DNA of 64,000 nt, taken from Amycolatopsis mongoliensis. GTDB taxonomy: Bacteria; Actinomycetota; Actinomycetes; Mycobacteriales; Pseudonocardiaceae. Under the pieces are notes generated by a model. It was given only the letters and a program-made list of their open reading frames with translations. It searched no databases and had not been told where the DNA came from. The DNA is taken from positions 1,922,001 through 1,986,000 of the forward strand of contig NZ_CP127295.1 of assembly GCF_030285665.1 (NCBI RefSeq). The letters are read 5' to 3'. A program made the translations under genes and the position numbers. Below, one piece after another: positions 1,195-5,440 of this stretch (positions within the stretch are counted from its first letter, which is position 1; every line of letters begins with the position of its first letter).

Positions 1195-2571
1195 ATGACA
1201 GCCATGAGCCTGGACTTCACCGGTCTCACCGCGCAGGCCGCGCAGCTCGCCGCCGGCGAGGTCACCTCCGCCGAGCTCACCGCGACGGCGCTCGGGCGCG
1301 CGCTCGCGAGTCAGCCCACGCTCAACGCCTTCCGGCACCTGCGCGACGACGCGGCTCTCGCCGAAGCAGCCGAAGCGGACCAGCGGCTCGAGGCCGGGGA
1401 CCGCAAACCCCTGCTCGGCGTCCCCGTCGCCATCAAGGACGACGTCGACCTCACCGGCCTTCCCACGTCCTTCGGCTGCGCCGGTGAGTTCCCGGTGGCC
1501 ACCACCGACGCGCCCGCCGTCGCGCTGCTGCGCGAGGCCGGTGCTGTCATCATCGGCAAGACCAACACCCCCGAGCTGGGCCAATGGCCGTTCACCGAGG
1601 GCCCGGCCTTCGGCGTGACACGCAATCCGTGGCACGCCGGTCACACCCCCGGGGGTTCTTCGGGCGGGAGCGCGGCCGCGGTGGCGTCGGGGGTCATCGC
1701 GGCCGCGCTCGGTTCCGACGGCGCCGGCTCGGTGCGCATCCCGGCCGCGTGGACCGGGCTGGTCGGCATCAAGACCCAGCGCGGCCGGATCCCGACCGAC
1801 GGCGAGCTCTTCCACGGCCTGACCGTGCTCGGGCCGCTCGCCCGGACCGTCGAGGACGCCGCGCTGCTGCTGGACGTCACCGCCGCCACCGGCACCGCGT
1901 TCCGGACCGCCGCGACGCGCGAACCCGGCCGGCTGCGGATCGGGCTGTCGACCAAGATCCCGTTCACCGCGACCAAGACCCGGCTCGACCCGGTCGTCGA
2001 AGCCAGCGTCCGGCGACTCGCCGACTCGCTCGCCGGGCTGGGCCACGAGATCGTCGAGGTCGAGCCGGACTACGGGCTGATCGGCCTGACGTTCCTGCCG
2101 CGCTCGCTCACCGGCGTCCGCGACTGGACGCTGCGGGTGCCCGACCGCGCCGGGCTCGATCCGCGCACGCGCAGCAACGCCGGTCACGGCCGCCTGCTGG
2201 CCGGGCCCGCGCTGCGGCTCGCCCGCGCGCTCGAGCCGGGACTGCACCGGCGGATCGGCTCGGTCTTCGGCCGCGTCGACGTCCTGCTGACCCCGACCAC
2301 CGCGACCCCGCCGCCGCCGATCGGCACGTTCGACGGGCTGTCCGGCTGGGAGACCGACCAGGCCATGATCGCCGCCTGCCCGTACGCTTGGCCGTGGAAC
2401 GTGCTGGGCTGGCCGGGGGTCAACGTCCCGGCCGGGCTGACGGACGGCGGGCTGCCGCTGGGCGCGCAGCTGCTCGGCCCCTCGCACGCCGAGGAGCGGC
2501 TGGTTTCGCTCGCCGCGCAACTGGAAGAGGTCGAACGGTGGCCGGAGCGGCATCCCGAGACAAGCTGGTAA
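1195..2571 (+). CDS. Amidase signature (AS) family amidase
   Basis: This 458-residue protein has the Ser-cisSer-Lys triad of amidase-signature hydrolases: Lys81 in VAIKDD, the cis-Ser near residue 155 in GGSSGGSAAAVASG, and the nucleophilic Ser179 in GSDGAGSVRIPA. The family hydrolyses carboxamides, amino-acid amides or nitrile-derived amides. The overall length is typical for stand-alone AS amidases, and there is no signal peptide or membrane segment, so it should be cytoplasmic. A second in-frame ATG at 1204 is an alternative start. Its end overlaps the start of the TetR gene by 34 nt, so the two are translated as a coupled pair. The substrate cannot be read from sequence. Confidence 0.9.
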   Translation: MTAMSLDFTGLTAQAAQLAAGEVTSAELTATALGRALASQPTLNAFRHLRDDAALAEAAEADQRLEAGDRKPLLGVPVAIKDDVDLTGLPTSFGCAGEFPVATTDAPAVALLREAGAVIIGKTNTPELGQWPFTEGPAFGVTRNPWHAGHTPGGSSGGSAAAVASGVIAAALGSDGAGSVRIPAAWTGLVGIKTQRGRIPTDGELFHGLTVLGPLARTVEDAALLLDVTAATGTAFRTAATREPGRLRIGLSTKIPFTATKTRLDPVVEASVRRLADSLAGLGHEIVEVEPDYGLIGLTFLPRSLTGVRDWTLRVPDRAGLDPRTRSNAGHGRLLAGPALRLARALEPGLHRRIGSVFGRVDVLLTPTTATPPPPIGTFDGLSGWETDQAMIAACPYAWPWNVLGWPGVNVPAGLTDGGLPLGAQLLGPSHAEERLVSLAAQLEEVERWPERHPETSW

Positions 2572-3113
2572 GCACCCGGGACGCCATCCTGCGCGGCGCG
2601 TTGACGGTCGTCGGCGAGCACGGTGTCGGCGGGCTGACGAACCGCCGGATCGTGGCCGCCGCCGGCGTTTCGCTCGGCACGCTCACCTACCACTTCCCGA
2701 GCCAGACGGCGTTGCTGCGCGAAGCGATGCTGATGTTCGTCGAGGACGAGACGGCGAAGCTCCGCGCGATCGTCGACGGCTACCGCTCGGAGGGCCTGAG
2801 CGTCGAGCAGGCCGCGTCGGTCGTCGAGCACGTGATCGCGCAGCTGCCCTTCGGCGCCGACGAGCTCGGCGCGCACGAGCTGTACCTCCAGTCCGCCCGG
2901 GATCCCGAGCTGCGCGAAGCTTCTTCGCGCTGCTTCGCGGCGTACGACGAACTGGCCGTGACGATCCTCGAAGCGCTGGGCGTGCCGGAGCCGCGGCGGC
3001 TGGCCGGGCCGGTCGTCGCGCTGATCGCCGGGCTGCAGCTGCGGCGGCTGGCGACCGGCGACACCGGAACACCGGTGGCCGAGCCGCTGATGATGCTGCT
3101 CCGCGGGGCTTGA
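2538..3113 (+). CDS. TetR-family transcriptional regulator
   Basis: The product has 191 residues. The N-terminal helix-turn-helix is visible (ILRGALTVVGEHGVGGLTNR, then IVAAAGVSLGTLTYHF, the classic TetR recognition-helix pattern), followed by a helical ligand-binding region. The GTG at 2538 is chosen because GGAAGAGG lies about 7 nt upstream and the HTH then begins at the usual distance from the N-terminus. The gene starts inside the amidase gene and its stop overlaps the next ATG (TGATG), so three genes form one operon. It probably represses the operon through the palindrome at 1158-1175. Confidence 0.88.
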   Translation: MAGAASRDKLVSTRDAILRGALTVVGEHGVGGLTNRRIVAAAGVSLGTLTYHFPSQTALLREAMLMFVEDETAKLRAIVDGYRSEGLSVEQAASVVEHVIAQLPFGADELGAHELYLQSARDPELREASSRCFAAYDELAVTILEALGVPEPRRLAGPVVALIAGLQLRRLATGDTGTPVAEPLMMLLRGA

Positions 3114-3961
3114 TGGCGCGGGCGATCGTCCGCGGCACGGCGGCGTGGAAGTACTTCGGTGACTTCCGCGACGCGCTGCTGGCGGGGCAGGTGCTGGTGC
3201 TGCAGGTGGCGCACCCGGTCGTCGCGGCGGGGGTGCGGGACCATTCGGACTACACGTCGGATCCCTGGACGCGGTTGATGCGGACGGGCGCGTCGCTGTC
3301 GATCTACGTCTACGGCGGTGTCGCGGGTGCGCGGGTGGAGGCGGCGCGGCTGCGCTCCCTGCACCGGTCGTTCACCGGCTTCCTGGACGGACAGCGGTAC
3401 AGCGCTTTGGACCCGGCGGCGTATGCCTGGGTGCACGCGACGCTGGTGAAGGTTCCCGTTGACGCGCAACGGTTTTTCGGACGCCCACTGTCCGGTGGGG
3501 AACTCGACGAGTACTACGCGCAGATGTGCGACGTCGGGCGGTTGCTCGGTGTGCGCGAGCGCGACCTGCCGCCGGACTGGGCGAGTTTCGAGCGCTACTA
3601 CGACTCGATGGTGGCCGGGTTCGCCGGGAATCCGACGATCGACCAGCTCTTCGAGACGATCCGGACGGTGCCGAAGCCGGTGCGGTGGCTGCCCGACTCC
3701 TGGTGGCGGTGGCACGCCCGGATCCAGATGTTCCTGCTCCGGGCGACTTTGCCGCCCGGGCTCCGCACCCGCCTCGGTCTACAGTGGACTCTTCGCGACC
3801 AGCGGCGGTTCATCCGGTTCGCCGCGGTGGTGCGGGTTCTCGCGACGCCGGTCCCGGCCGGGCTGCGGACCGCGCACATGCGGTGGATCGGCAAGCTCAA
3901 CGTCTGGCTCCGCGCGCACCCGAAGGTCTACCAGCGCCTGGTGGGCAGCAAGACGTCGTGA
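3113..3961 (+). CDS. DUF2236 / MpaB-type oxygenase-like protein
   Basis: The protein has 282 residues. The N-terminal region (GTAAWKYFGDFRDALLAGQ, then VLQVAHPVVAAGVRDHSDY) and the middle motif LMRTGASLSIYVYG match the DUF2236 family, which includes the fungal oxygenase MpaB and the latex-clearing proteins, some of them haem b dependent. The ATG at 3113 overlaps the TetR stop codon. No signal peptide is seen. Because it sits third in an amidase/TetR operon it may act on the same, unknown, substrate class. The stop codon lies inside the left arm of a bidirectional hairpin. Confidence 0.8.
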   Translation: MARAIVRGTAAWKYFGDFRDALLAGQVLVLQVAHPVVAAGVRDHSDYTSDPWTRLMRTGASLSIYVYGGVAGARVEAARLRSLHRSFTGFLDGQRYSALDPAAYAWVHATLVKVPVDAQRFFGRPLSGGELDEYYAQMCDVGRLLGVRERDLPPDWASFERYYDSMVAGFAGNPTIDQLFETIRTVPKPVRWLPDSWWRWHARIQMFLLRATLPPGLRTRLGLQWTLRDQRRFIRFAAVVRVLATPVPAGLRTAHMRWIGKLNVWLRAHPKVYQRLVGSKTS

Positions 3962-3999
3962 GTGAGAAACAGTGTTCTAACCCTGTTTCTCACTCACGA
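3956..3999. terminator. Bidirectional 17-bp hairpin containing both convergent stop codons
   Basis: TCGTGAGTGAGAAACAG (3956-3972) and CTGTTTCTCACTCACGA (3983-3999) are perfect reverse complements around a 10-nt loop. The TGA of the DUF2236 gene (3959-3961) lies in the left arm and the TGA of the CGNR gene (3990-3992) in the right arm. No long T-run follows on either strand. Confidence 0.85.
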
Positions 4000-4532
4000 C
4001 CGCTGACCCGCGCGTAGTGGGCCCGGGCCTTGGCGCGGTTCCCGCACCGGGCCATCGAGCACCACTGCCGGTTCCGCCGCGGCGAAGCGTCGCAGAACCG
4101 CAGCCCGCAGTCGTCCGCCGCGCACACGCGGACTTCGGCGTCGCTGGTCGCCAGGTCGATCGCGTCCGCCGCCAGAGTCGCGAACGCCGACGCCACCGGG
4201 TCCTTCGGGGCCGGCACCTCGCGACGCAGGCGTCCCCCGGCCAGGACCAGCCGCGGCGGCGGTGCGGGCGCCGAGGCCGCCGCGTTGTTCACCAGGTCGG
4301 CGTCCATCTCTTCGGGCGCTCGCAGCACCCGGTCGATCGCCTCCCGCAACGCTTTCGCCGCCAGCACGTTCCCCGCCGTCACCGGCACCGGACCCGTCGT
4401 GAACCCGGCGAGCGCGAGCCACTCCGCCAGCGCGTCGGGCCCGGTCAGCAGCTCGACGCCGCCGTCGTGCCGGCTGCGCAGGGTGTTGACCAGGTCGAGG
4501 CACGGCCGTCCGCCGTCGAAGACCCATTCCAT
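3990..4532 (-). CDS. ABATE-domain CGNR zinc-finger transcriptional regulator
   Basis: The product has 180 residues from the ATG at 4532 (182 from a GTG at 4538). The N-terminal domain (FDGGRPCLDLVNTLR) matches the ABATE domain, described as a stress- or ligand-sensing module. The C-terminus has the CGNR finger: C-x4-C (CAADDC), then WCSMARCGNRAKARAHYAR. The finger is thought to bind DNA. The gene is divergent from a dehalogenase-like gene, and two matching inverted repeats lie between them. A TAGAAT -10-like hexamer (4539-4544) sits 6 nt before the ATG at 4532 with no Shine-Dalgarno, so a leaderless mRNA is plausible and favours that start. Confidence 0.88.
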   Translation of the reverse strand: MEWVFDGGRPCLDLVNTLRSRHDGGVELLTGPDALAEWLALAGFTTGPVPVTAGNVLAAKALREAIDRVLRAPEEMDADLVNNAAASAPAPPPRLVLAGGRLRREVPAPKDPVASAFATLAADAIDLATSDAEVRVCAADDCGLRFCDASPRRNRQWCSMARCGNRAKARAHYARVSGRE

Positions 4533-4539
4533 GACCACA

Positions 4540-4564
4540 TTCTAACCGTTGCGAACAGTTAGAA
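4540..4564. promoter_or_regulatory. Operator 1 of a divergent promoter pair
   Basis: TTCTAACCG-N9-GTTAGAA is an inverted repeat with TTCTAAC/GTTAGAA arms. It overlaps the predicted -35 hexamer (TTGCGA, 4549-4554) of the dehalogenase promoter and lies next to the start of the CGNR regulator gene. Confidence 0.75.
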
Positions 4565-4577
4565 GTGCGGCTACCTT
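4549..4577 (+). promoter_or_regulatory. Sigma-70-type promoter of the dehalogenase-like gene, probably leaderless
   Basis: TTGCGA (4549-4554), a 17-nt spacer and TACCTT (4572-4577) form a good vegetative promoter. Only 8 nt separate the -10 from the ATG at 4586, and no Shine-Dalgarno is present. Transcription is therefore predicted to begin at or next to the start codon. Confidence 0.6.
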
Positions 4578-4600
4578 CTAACCGTATGAACAGGTTAGAA
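4576..4600. promoter_or_regulatory. Operator 2, overlapping the -10 end and start codon of the dehalogenase-like gene
   Basis: TTCTAACCG-N8-GGTTAGAA repeats operator 1 with the same arms, 36 bp further on. It spans the first five codons of the dehalogenase-like gene, so a bound regulator would block both -10 recognition and transcription start. The presumed ligand is the CGNR regulator encoded next door. Confidence 0.75.
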
Positions 4601-5440
4601 AGCACGGCCACGGTCAACGGGCTCCGGATGCACTACCTCCGCGCCGGCGACGGCCCGCCGCTGTTCCTCCTGCACGGCTGGCCGCAGACGTCGCACTGCT
4701 GGCACAAGATCCTCGAGCCCCTCGCCGCCACGCACACCGTCATCGCCCCCGACCTGCGCGGGTACGGCCGCACGGACAAGCCCCGGACCGGCTACGACAA
4801 GCGCACGATGGCCGCCGACGTCGCCGCCCTCGCCGAGCACCTCGGCTTCGAGCGCACCGCCGTCGCCGGGCACGACCGCGGCGGCCGCGTCGCCCACCGC
4901 TGGGCCCTAGACCGCCCGGACCAGGTGGACCGCCTCGCCGTCCTCGACATCGCGCCGACCCGCGCCATGTGGCAGCGCCTCGACACCGGCGTCGCGAAGG
5001 CCTACTGGCACTGGCTCTTCCACCTCCAGCCCGACCTGCCGGAACTGCTCGCCGGGCAGAACATCGCCGGCTACCTCGGCTACTTCTACGAGCGCTGGAC
5101 CCACCAGCGCCACGGCCTCGACGCGGACGCCGTCGCCGAGTACGTCCGCGCCTTCTCGCAGCCCGGCGCGCTGCGGGCCGGTTTCGACGACTACCGCGCG
5201 TCCTTCCCGGACGACGCCGAACTCGACGACGCCGACTTCGCCGCCGGAAAGCGCGTCACCCAGCCACTTCTCGCCCTCTGGGGCGCGAACGGCCTGCTCG
5301 GCACCCTGCCGACGCTCGAGATCTGGCAGGAGTACGCGAACGACGTCACGGGCGCAGCACTGGCCGAATGCGGACACTTCCTGCCCGAGGAACAGCCGGA
5401 CGAAGTCGTCTCCCACCTGCGGAAGTTCCTGAACCCCTGA
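4586..5440 (+). CDS. Alpha/beta hydrolase resembling fluoroacetate/haloacetate dehalogenase
   Basis: The product has 284 residues. HGWPQT (30-35) is the oxyanion-hole region. Asp97 in GHDRGGR is the nucleophile, Asp121 (VLDIAPT) and His264 (CGHF) complete the triad. Arg98 and Arg101 match the carboxylate-binding arginines of fluoroacetate dehalogenases, and His142-Trp143 match their halide pocket. As I recall the numbering, these positions sit at a constant offset from the characterised enzymes, with a Tyr near 203. Epoxide hydrolases share the fold but normally lack the paired Arg. Codon 4 is a rare TTA, forced by operator 2. The ATG at 4586 is preferred because the promoter and operator geometry leave no room for a longer 5' end. 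Confidence 0.8.
   Translation: MNRLESTATVNGLRMHYLRAGDGPPLFLLHGWPQTSHCWHKILEPLAATHTVIAPDLRGYGRTDKPRTGYDKRTMAADVAALAEHLGFERTAVAGHDRGGRVAHRWALDRPDQVDRLAVLDIAPTRAMWQRLDTGVAKAYWHWLFHLQPDLPELLAGQNIAGYLGYFYERWTHQRHGLDADAVAEYVRAFSQPGALRAGFDDYRASFPDDAELDDADFAAGKRVTQPLLALWGANGLLGTLPTLEIWQEYANDVTGAALAECGHFLPEEQPDEVVSHLRKFLNP

Follow-up and report, generated by a model that had tools for sequence, protein, structure and literature searches.

Putative twin operators of a CGNR zinc-finger regulator beside a fluoroacetate-dehalogenase-like gene, and a half-site common to two CGNR clades

The window analysed here, a stretch of DNA of 64,000 nucleotides from Amycolatopsis mongoliensis, contains a divergent gene pair with two inverted repeats between its members, and the locus raises the question of which protein would read these repeats and what their occupancy would do to the two genes. 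One of the genes (3990-4532, minus strand) encodes a CGNR regulator of 180 aa, and the other (4586-5440, plus strand) encodes a fluoroacetate-dehalogenase-like alpha/beta hydrolase of 284 aa. The original prediction described the operators of CGNR/ABATE proteins as poorly known and, in agreement with this, no CGNR operator was found in the available portions of the open-access papers searched; subscription papers may hold more. In three of these papers (PMC3485107, PMC4260502 and PMC9976334), a CGNR protein appears, within the portions available, as an annotation in a table only. Judged by their titles, none of the papers found on fluoroacetate dehalogenase and a repressor concerns the regulation of this enzyme.

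The assignment of the regulator as a CGNR zinc-finger protein was borne out by Pfam, with an ABATE domain at residues 8-130 (PF07336, 1.8e-22) and a zf-CGNR domain at residues 134-175 (PF11706, 5.6e-17), whose scores of 80.7 and 61.7 bits both lie above the curated cut-offs (24.4 and 24, respectively). No helix-turn-helix domain of the TetR/MarR type was detected in the protein by Pfam at E <= 0.001. The zinc cysteines C137, C142, C158 and C163 were invariant in alignments of 3, 8 and 22 sequences, and the CGNR motif corresponds to C163-G164-N165-R166. In the AlphaFold model (pLDDT 92.2), the zinc finger includes a helix spanning residues 160-177, encoded at 4002-4055 on the minus strand, whose residues covary with operator bases as described below. 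The sole PDB match below E 0.001 was Jann_2411 (3h0n, E 9e-6, TM 0.54), the first solved protein with ABATE and zf-CGNR domains, which is the best match of the regulator by sequence as well as by structure. Both proteins have the same two-domain fold and share the four zinc cysteines, whereas the motif of Jann_2411 is CQNR and its identity to the regulator is 25% over the structural alignment. Jann_2411 was reported to be probably dimeric, with a treble clef that likely binds DNA, and the word "operator" is absent from the paper (PMC2954205).

The dehalogenase-like identity of the second gene was likewise confirmed. The hydrolase has the alpha/beta fold according to Pfam (PF00561, 5.8e-29), and its PDB sequence matches are headed by Alr0039 (3qyj, 8.6e-73), followed by many fluoroacetate dehalogenases and some epoxide hydrolases. 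Similarity to Alr0039 and to the fluoroacetate dehalogenases 3r3u and 9c9f is near full-length (E 2e-60 to 9e-73; 2.2e-61 for 9c9f). Alr0039, the nearest solved relative, is named by locus only. The alignment with 9c9f covers the HDRG region, the YWHW and DYRAS stretches and the C-terminal GH stretch, among which we take HDRG to be the nucleophile region and others to form the halide pocket. The hydrolase is fluoroacetate-dehalogenase-like by sequence, and hydrolysis of the C-F bond is a putative activity. Among the best 80 named loci, drawn from at least 514 confirmed relatives, a hydrolase relative adjoins the CGNR gene in 52, including one at 38% identity (L306) and one represented by fragments only (L311, Amycolatopsis regifaucium). 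The divergent pair was seen in Amycolatopsis, Rhodococcus, Nocardia, Prauserella, Kibdelosporangium, Saccharopolyspora, Streptomyces, Nonomuraea and others, and the named relatives at 61-92% identity within the best 80 are Amycolatopsis. Three loci (L092, L201 and L311) are decayed copies, with matches limited to pieces of the CGNR and hydrolase genes.

Two inverted repeats with TTCTAAC/GTTAGAA arms, 36 bp apart from start to start, had been proposed for the intergenic region, and both are present there. Putative operator 1 (TTCTAACCGTTGCGAACAGTTAGAA, 4540-4564) and putative operator 2 (TTCTAACCGTATGAACAGGTTAGAA, 4576-4600), which as dyads carry no strand, are each 25 bp long and have identical arms and spacing (TTCTAAC-N11-GTTAGAA). 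Written as cores, they read TCTAACC-N9-AGTTAGA (4541-4563) and TCTAACC-N9-GGTTAGA (4577-4599), the right arm of operator 1 being one mismatch away from the family core GGTTAGA. With up to three mismatches, the 25-mer occurs twice in the 64-kb window against 0.16 expected, a number reached in 0 of 100 shuffles. Genome-wide (10.8 Mb), exact matches to the pattern with a gap of 8-13 were found in three places (0 for the reversed control), two of which are this intergenic region and the third is at 3464316. The core TCTAACC-N9-GGTTAGA with up to two mismatches was found in five places, namely the three exact ones, an overlapping match at 3464309 and one at 1619659, against two for the reversed control. 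The overlapping TCTAACC-type dyads at 3464309-3464340 of the source chromosome (L003:1494-1525) lie just upstream of a short ORF which, by eye, is helix-turn-helix-like and belongs to a region resembling an integrated element; all nine CGNR matches of the genome lie away from them.

On the other side of the regulator gene, a perfect 16-bp hairpin (3955-4000) separates it from an upstream gene for a protein with an MpaB/rubber-oxygenase catalytic domain (3110-3961, PF09995), and its loop carries TTCTAACC. An identical hairpin was found at one other genus locus (L021) among 28 checked, the window's own included. A third operator in this loop was considered and rejected, as TTCTAAC or GTTAGAA occurs there in 4 of the 28 loci, again counting that of the window.

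The positions of the dyads relative to promoter-like elements agree with the geometry originally proposed, in which operator 1 covers the -35 and operator 2 the start codon. Read from the sequence, the -35-like TTGCGA of the hydrolase (4549-4554, plus strand) lies inside operator 1; the -10-like TACCTT (4572-4577, plus strand), assigned by geometry only, follows after a 17-bp spacer, touches operator 2 and ends 8 nt before the ATG at 4586. On the minus strand, the predicted TAGAAT is present at 4544-4539 as a -10-like element of the regulator, 6 nt before its ATG at 4532, and overlaps the left arm of operator 1. The description of TTGCGA-17-TACCTT as a good promoter stands with respect to its hexamers and was generous with respect to its strength, since a consensus promoter scan returned no sigma-70-type site in the intergenic stretch at its threshold; the leaderless start therefore rests on geometry. 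Of the 49 twin-site orthologues, 47 keep a TTG inside the spacer of operator 1, which, together with this geometry, is consistent with a leaderless start of the hydrolase transcript.

A search for the same arms beside orthologues had been suggested as a check, and its outcome was strongly positive. In 80 genus genomes, the hydrolase was found in 55 (E <= 1e-90) and the CGNR orthologue in 53 of these 55, appearing in one genome (G014) as two matches. The exact dyad (N10-12) occurred in 26 places in 22 of the 80 genomes, against none for the reversed control. Judging from coordinates, 25 of these places fall within 50 bp of a CGNR orthologue, the exception being the dyad at 3464316 of the source genome. 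When up to three arm mismatches were allowed, a dyad was present in all 53 orthologues of the CGNR/hydrolase pair, and two separate dyads in 49 of them, most often 36 bp apart (39 orthologues) and otherwise 37 bp (8) or 22 bp (2). The remaining four comprise L082, with two overlapping dyad matches, and L081, L083 and L084, with a single dyad that reads as operator 2 reversed and sits between both start codons, 7-9 nt from each. Operator 1 was perfect in 5 and mismatched in 44 of the 49 twin-site orthologues, with the mismatch confined to the right arm in 40 of the 49. Neither of the two hydrolase orthologues in genomes that lack the CGNR orthologue (L198 and L199) has a dyad upstream. An operator-2-like site is also kept by a second hydrolase copy in genome G059 (L200), whose 2.5 kb contain no CGNR orthologue; a distantly related CGNR protein of the clade B type, its finger altered, is encoded there instead, and the CGNR orthologue of G059 is elsewhere in the genome.

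Operator 2 extends into the hydrolase gene, which begins M-N-R-L-E, and its right arm includes codon 4, a TTA leucine codon (4595-4597, plus strand). In all 47 of the 53 orthologues whose alignment reaches residue 1 (the other six align from residue 5-8), operator 2 contains the start codon and the fourth codon is TTA, against 3 TTA among the 1539 other leucine codons of these 47 genes. Codon 3 varies among the orthologues (Arg, Gln and others) and, because this adjoining codon varies while TTA is kept, the constraint on TTA acts on the DNA. In actinomycetes, TTA codons are translated by the bldA tRNA, a rare leucyl tRNA linked to development, and operator 2 may therefore also tie the hydrolase to that tRNA.

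In the CGNR family more widely, all trimer dyads were counted in the 300 bp (220 bp in a separate clade-A-type set) upstream of non-redundant CGNR genes, with gaps of 0 to 20 in the first set and 0 to 25 in the later ones. In the first set of 38 representatives, which had been partly inspected by eye beforehand, ACC-N9-GGT and ACC-N17-GGT were each found in 18 (3.2 and 3.3 expected, respectively), AAC-N11-GTT in 12 (1.0 expected) and TAA-N13-TTA in 10 (0.2 expected). In a phylum hold-out of 43 representatives from 60 loci, 10 of which were dropped as their domain start was unplaceable, ACC-N17-GGT came out on top (15 vs. 3.0 expected), whereas ACC-N9-GGT was weak (8 of 43 vs. 4.3 expected), clade A proteins being a minority there. 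This preference for N17 over N9 led to a two-clade reading: inspection after the hold-out revealed two kinds of CGNR protein with two spacings. One operator for all CGNR proteins was thus rejected, the phylum hold-out having given N17 and clades C and D neither spacing clearly.

The two kinds were placed on a quick, midpoint-rooted tree of 107 CGNR representatives, in which the limits of clades A to D were drawn after the motif hits were known. Branch support was weak for clade A (66) and 95 for clade B. Upstream of the 42 clade A genes, ACC-N9-GGT was found in 31 (2.6 expected) and the N17 form in 6 (2.4 expected); conversely, upstream of the 36 clade B genes, ACC-N17-GGT was found in 28 (2.2 expected) and the N9 form in 6 (2.3 expected). 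Fisher tests gave 4e-7 and 1e-8, values that are uncorrected for relatedness. The density of the own-clade spacing upstream was 17-fold (A) and 11-fold (B) that elsewhere in the same loci, compared to 0.3-2.2-fold for a spacing one base off and 2.0- and 2.3-fold for the spacing of the other clade. The N17 matches within the clade of the window were set aside as operator 2 overlapping a GGT near the -10. Clade C (15 proteins) showed no clear dyad, with N9 in 2 and N17 in 3 (1.1 and 0.9 expected), and neither dyad was found upstream of the 8 clade D genes. Clade C proteins mostly carry VAAYR or VAAHR after the motif, and several in clade D carry RVARHY; both clades may use another site, or may not bind DNA this way.

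Three clade-type hold-outs, fetched after the spacings had been noticed, gave the predicted spacing as the highest among the 26 gaps tested for ACC in each case. The N17 form was present in 8 of 11 clade-B-type genes (1.1 expected), and the N9 form in 15 of 21 clade-A-type genes from genera other than Amycolatopsis, one Sphingomonas included (1.9 expected), a set from which 12 Amycolatopsis loci and the truncated L311 had been left out of 80. Since these two hold-outs later entered the tree set (30 of its 107 rows, with 38 more coming from the phylum hold-out loci), the separate clade-A-type hold-out is the only one that stands apart from the tree. For this set, 2 of 88 loci were dropped and then 25 of 86 with at least 70% identity to earlier proteins, so that its members are less than 70% identical to them; N9 was found in 24 of 35 (2.6 expected). 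In both clade-A-type hold-outs, AAC-N11-GTT, which is part of the same dyad, ranked at the top of all trimers. ACC-N0-GGT (AACCGGTT) was also enriched upstream of clade A genes (11 of 35 vs. 3.0 in the separate hold-out), which may reflect overlapping half-sites.

CGNR proteins gave nine matches in the source genome and were found in 55 of 149 genomes drawn across the phylum, and the half-site recurs upstream of CGNR genes with many different neighbours. Among the nine genes of the source genome, four have a strict N9 or N17 dyad, three have none and two were unplaceable. Two paralogous CGNR genes of this genome (L004 and L009, the latter at 2045-2112) have twin dyads of their own of the GAACC/GGTTC type, and that of L009 faces an apparent epoxide hydrolase gene, as judged by eye.

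The three bases that flank the ACC core on its outer side had no part in the selection of sites, and they too are mirrored between the arms. In clade A, they were complementary at -1, -2 and -3 in 36, 31 and 29 of 41 sites, respectively, compared to 24.7, 22.4 and 15.3 for shuffled flanks, and none of 2000 shuffles reached the observed values, relatedness not being removed. In clade B, the first base alone was clearly mirrored (23 of 39 vs. 11.7). The flanks differ by subfamily (CTAACC, GTAACC, GTTACC, GTCACC and GGAACC), and covariation linked protein column 173 with base -3, columns 165, 169 and 172 with base -1, and column 169 with base -2, in a table that omitted 21 of 78 proteins (20 without a site and 1 without a parsable helix). 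In the model, residues 165, 169, 172 and 173 share one face of helix 160-177 (i, i+4, i+7, i+8). Arg-G and Lys-G pairs are standard protein-DNA contacts.

In the clade A set, 13 of the 14 proteins lacking Arg173 had C at -3, as against none of the 16 carrying it. One further representative of the 35 was missing from the helix table of the separate hold-out, which covered the 22 that have a site; all of these have Arg173, and C at -3 occurred in 2 of these 22. The written prediction P3, Arg173 with G at -3, held in 20 of 22, but the set had no protein without Arg173 and thus offers no contrast. Prediction P2 (CG[N/T]K with C at -1) failed, with 0 of 1 proteins with K and C in 7 of 21 without it. 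Prediction P1 (CG[S/A]R with T at -1) held in 1 of 2, and T at -1 is better explained by Met169. Two other relations, first seen in the first covariation set and absent from the written list, recurred in this hold-out: G at -2 in 3 of 3 proteins with Lys169 and 1 of 19 without it, and A at -1 in 0 of 6 proteins with Tyr172 and 15 of 16 without it. Phylogenetically independent residue-base changes were few, as each trait had 1-2 supported pairs, a number that does not suffice for a sign test. Taken at the level of sequence comparison, these data suggest a correspondence in which base -3 is G where Arg173 is present and C where it is missing, Lys169 is paired with G at -2 and Met169 with T at -1, and A at -1 is lost where residue 172 is Tyr; in the regulator of the window, they suggest N165, A169, H172 and Y173 as base-reading positions. 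We consider it probable that a zf-CGNR code of this kind exists, comprising an ACC core common to the two large clades, a distance between half-site centres that depends on the clade (12 or 20 bp) and a choice of the three outer bases by residues 165, 169, 172 and 173.

The two dyads are very probably the binding sites of the CGNR regulator itself. In the model that we favour, each subunit of a CGNR dimer would place its C-terminal zinc-finger helix on one ACC of ACC-N9-GGT. Operator 1 would cover the -35 of the hydrolase together with the -10 of the regulator, and operator 2 the edge of the hydrolase -10, its start point and its start codon, so that occupancy would shut both leaderless promoters, resulting in autorepression and repression of the hydrolase. 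The repressor would be released by a small molecule accommodated in the ABATE domain, probably one that the hydrolase converts or forms. To this explanation as a whole, putative CGNR-dimer operators repressing both leaderless promoters until a ligand releases them, we assign a probability of roughly 0.85. The comparison shows site conservation, dependence on the CGNR gene, a shared half-site, subfamily spacing, mirrored flanks and residue-base covariation; physical binding, repression over activation, leaderless starts and the ligand are what we infer from it.

The arrangement could also be read as activation, with the CGNR protein, for example, recruiting polymerase from operator 1 and operator 2 acting as a lower-affinity brake. 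That operator 1 covers the -35 and is mismatched in most twin-site orthologues, as if two affinities were in play, would fit such a role. Against this, operator 2 overlaps the start codon and reaches the -10, where repressors classically bind, and where a single dyad is present it sits close to both starts; we therefore regard activation as unlikely. A further reading, in which the dyads are sites of a different regulator, for example a TetR or MarR protein whose gene is elsewhere, and adjoin the CGNR gene by chance, gains something from the general similarity of TetR-type dyads to these, from a TetR-like ORF two genes upstream (inside ORF 1584-3113, identified by reading only) and from the operator-2-like site that the second hydrolase copy of G059 keeps without an adjoining CGNR orthologue. 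It is nevertheless highly improbable, as the half-site accompanies CGNR genes that have many different neighbours, its spacing tracks the CGNR phylogeny, and the two hydrolases in genomes without the orthologue lack the dyad.

Operator 2 is palindromic and lies within the hydrolase coding sequence, features that would also fit a signal in the protein or the RNA, with no DNA site involved, through either conservation of the MNRLE peptide or a hairpin that the transcript forms around the start codon. This is the least probable of the alternatives, given the variable codon 3 next to a TTA kept in all 47 orthologues scored, a left arm that would fall outside a leaderless transcript, and the same half-site upstream of unrelated genes. 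The favoured model, repression by the CGNR protein, resembles divergent autorepressed TetR/MarR regulator-enzyme pairs, in which a one-component regulator likewise acts locally, through palindromic operators that overlie both promoters, but it would differ from them in having a zinc-finger helix in place of a helix-turn-helix, half-site centres 12 or 20 bp apart according to subfamily, and an operator set on the start codon.

Overall, the original interpretation of the locus is supported, in that the gene identities hold and the arms recur beside orthologues, while leaderless transcription, repression and an organohalide ligand are putative. Beyond it, the sequence comparisons add a half-site common to two large CGNR clades, with spacing and flanks that follow phylogeny and helix residues. 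An expression lead comes from Bordetella pertussis cultures, in which, according to the portion of the paper available, the CGNR zinc finger gene bp3097 changed expression together with molybdate transporter genes (PMC9976334), and which may point to a CGNR ligand or target in another phylum. At the hydrolase gene, the TTA imposed by operator 2 means that a constraint arising from DNA binding may make the enzyme depend on the bldA tRNA. Actinobacteria commonly encode ABATE/CGNR proteins, for which the papers searched offer a structure and no DNA target. With the half-site, the two spacing classes and the residue-base correspondence, the targets and ligands of this presumed regulator family can be sought directly and, if the proposed code is true, operators and target genes would be predictable from sequence alone for many ABATE/CGNR proteins.
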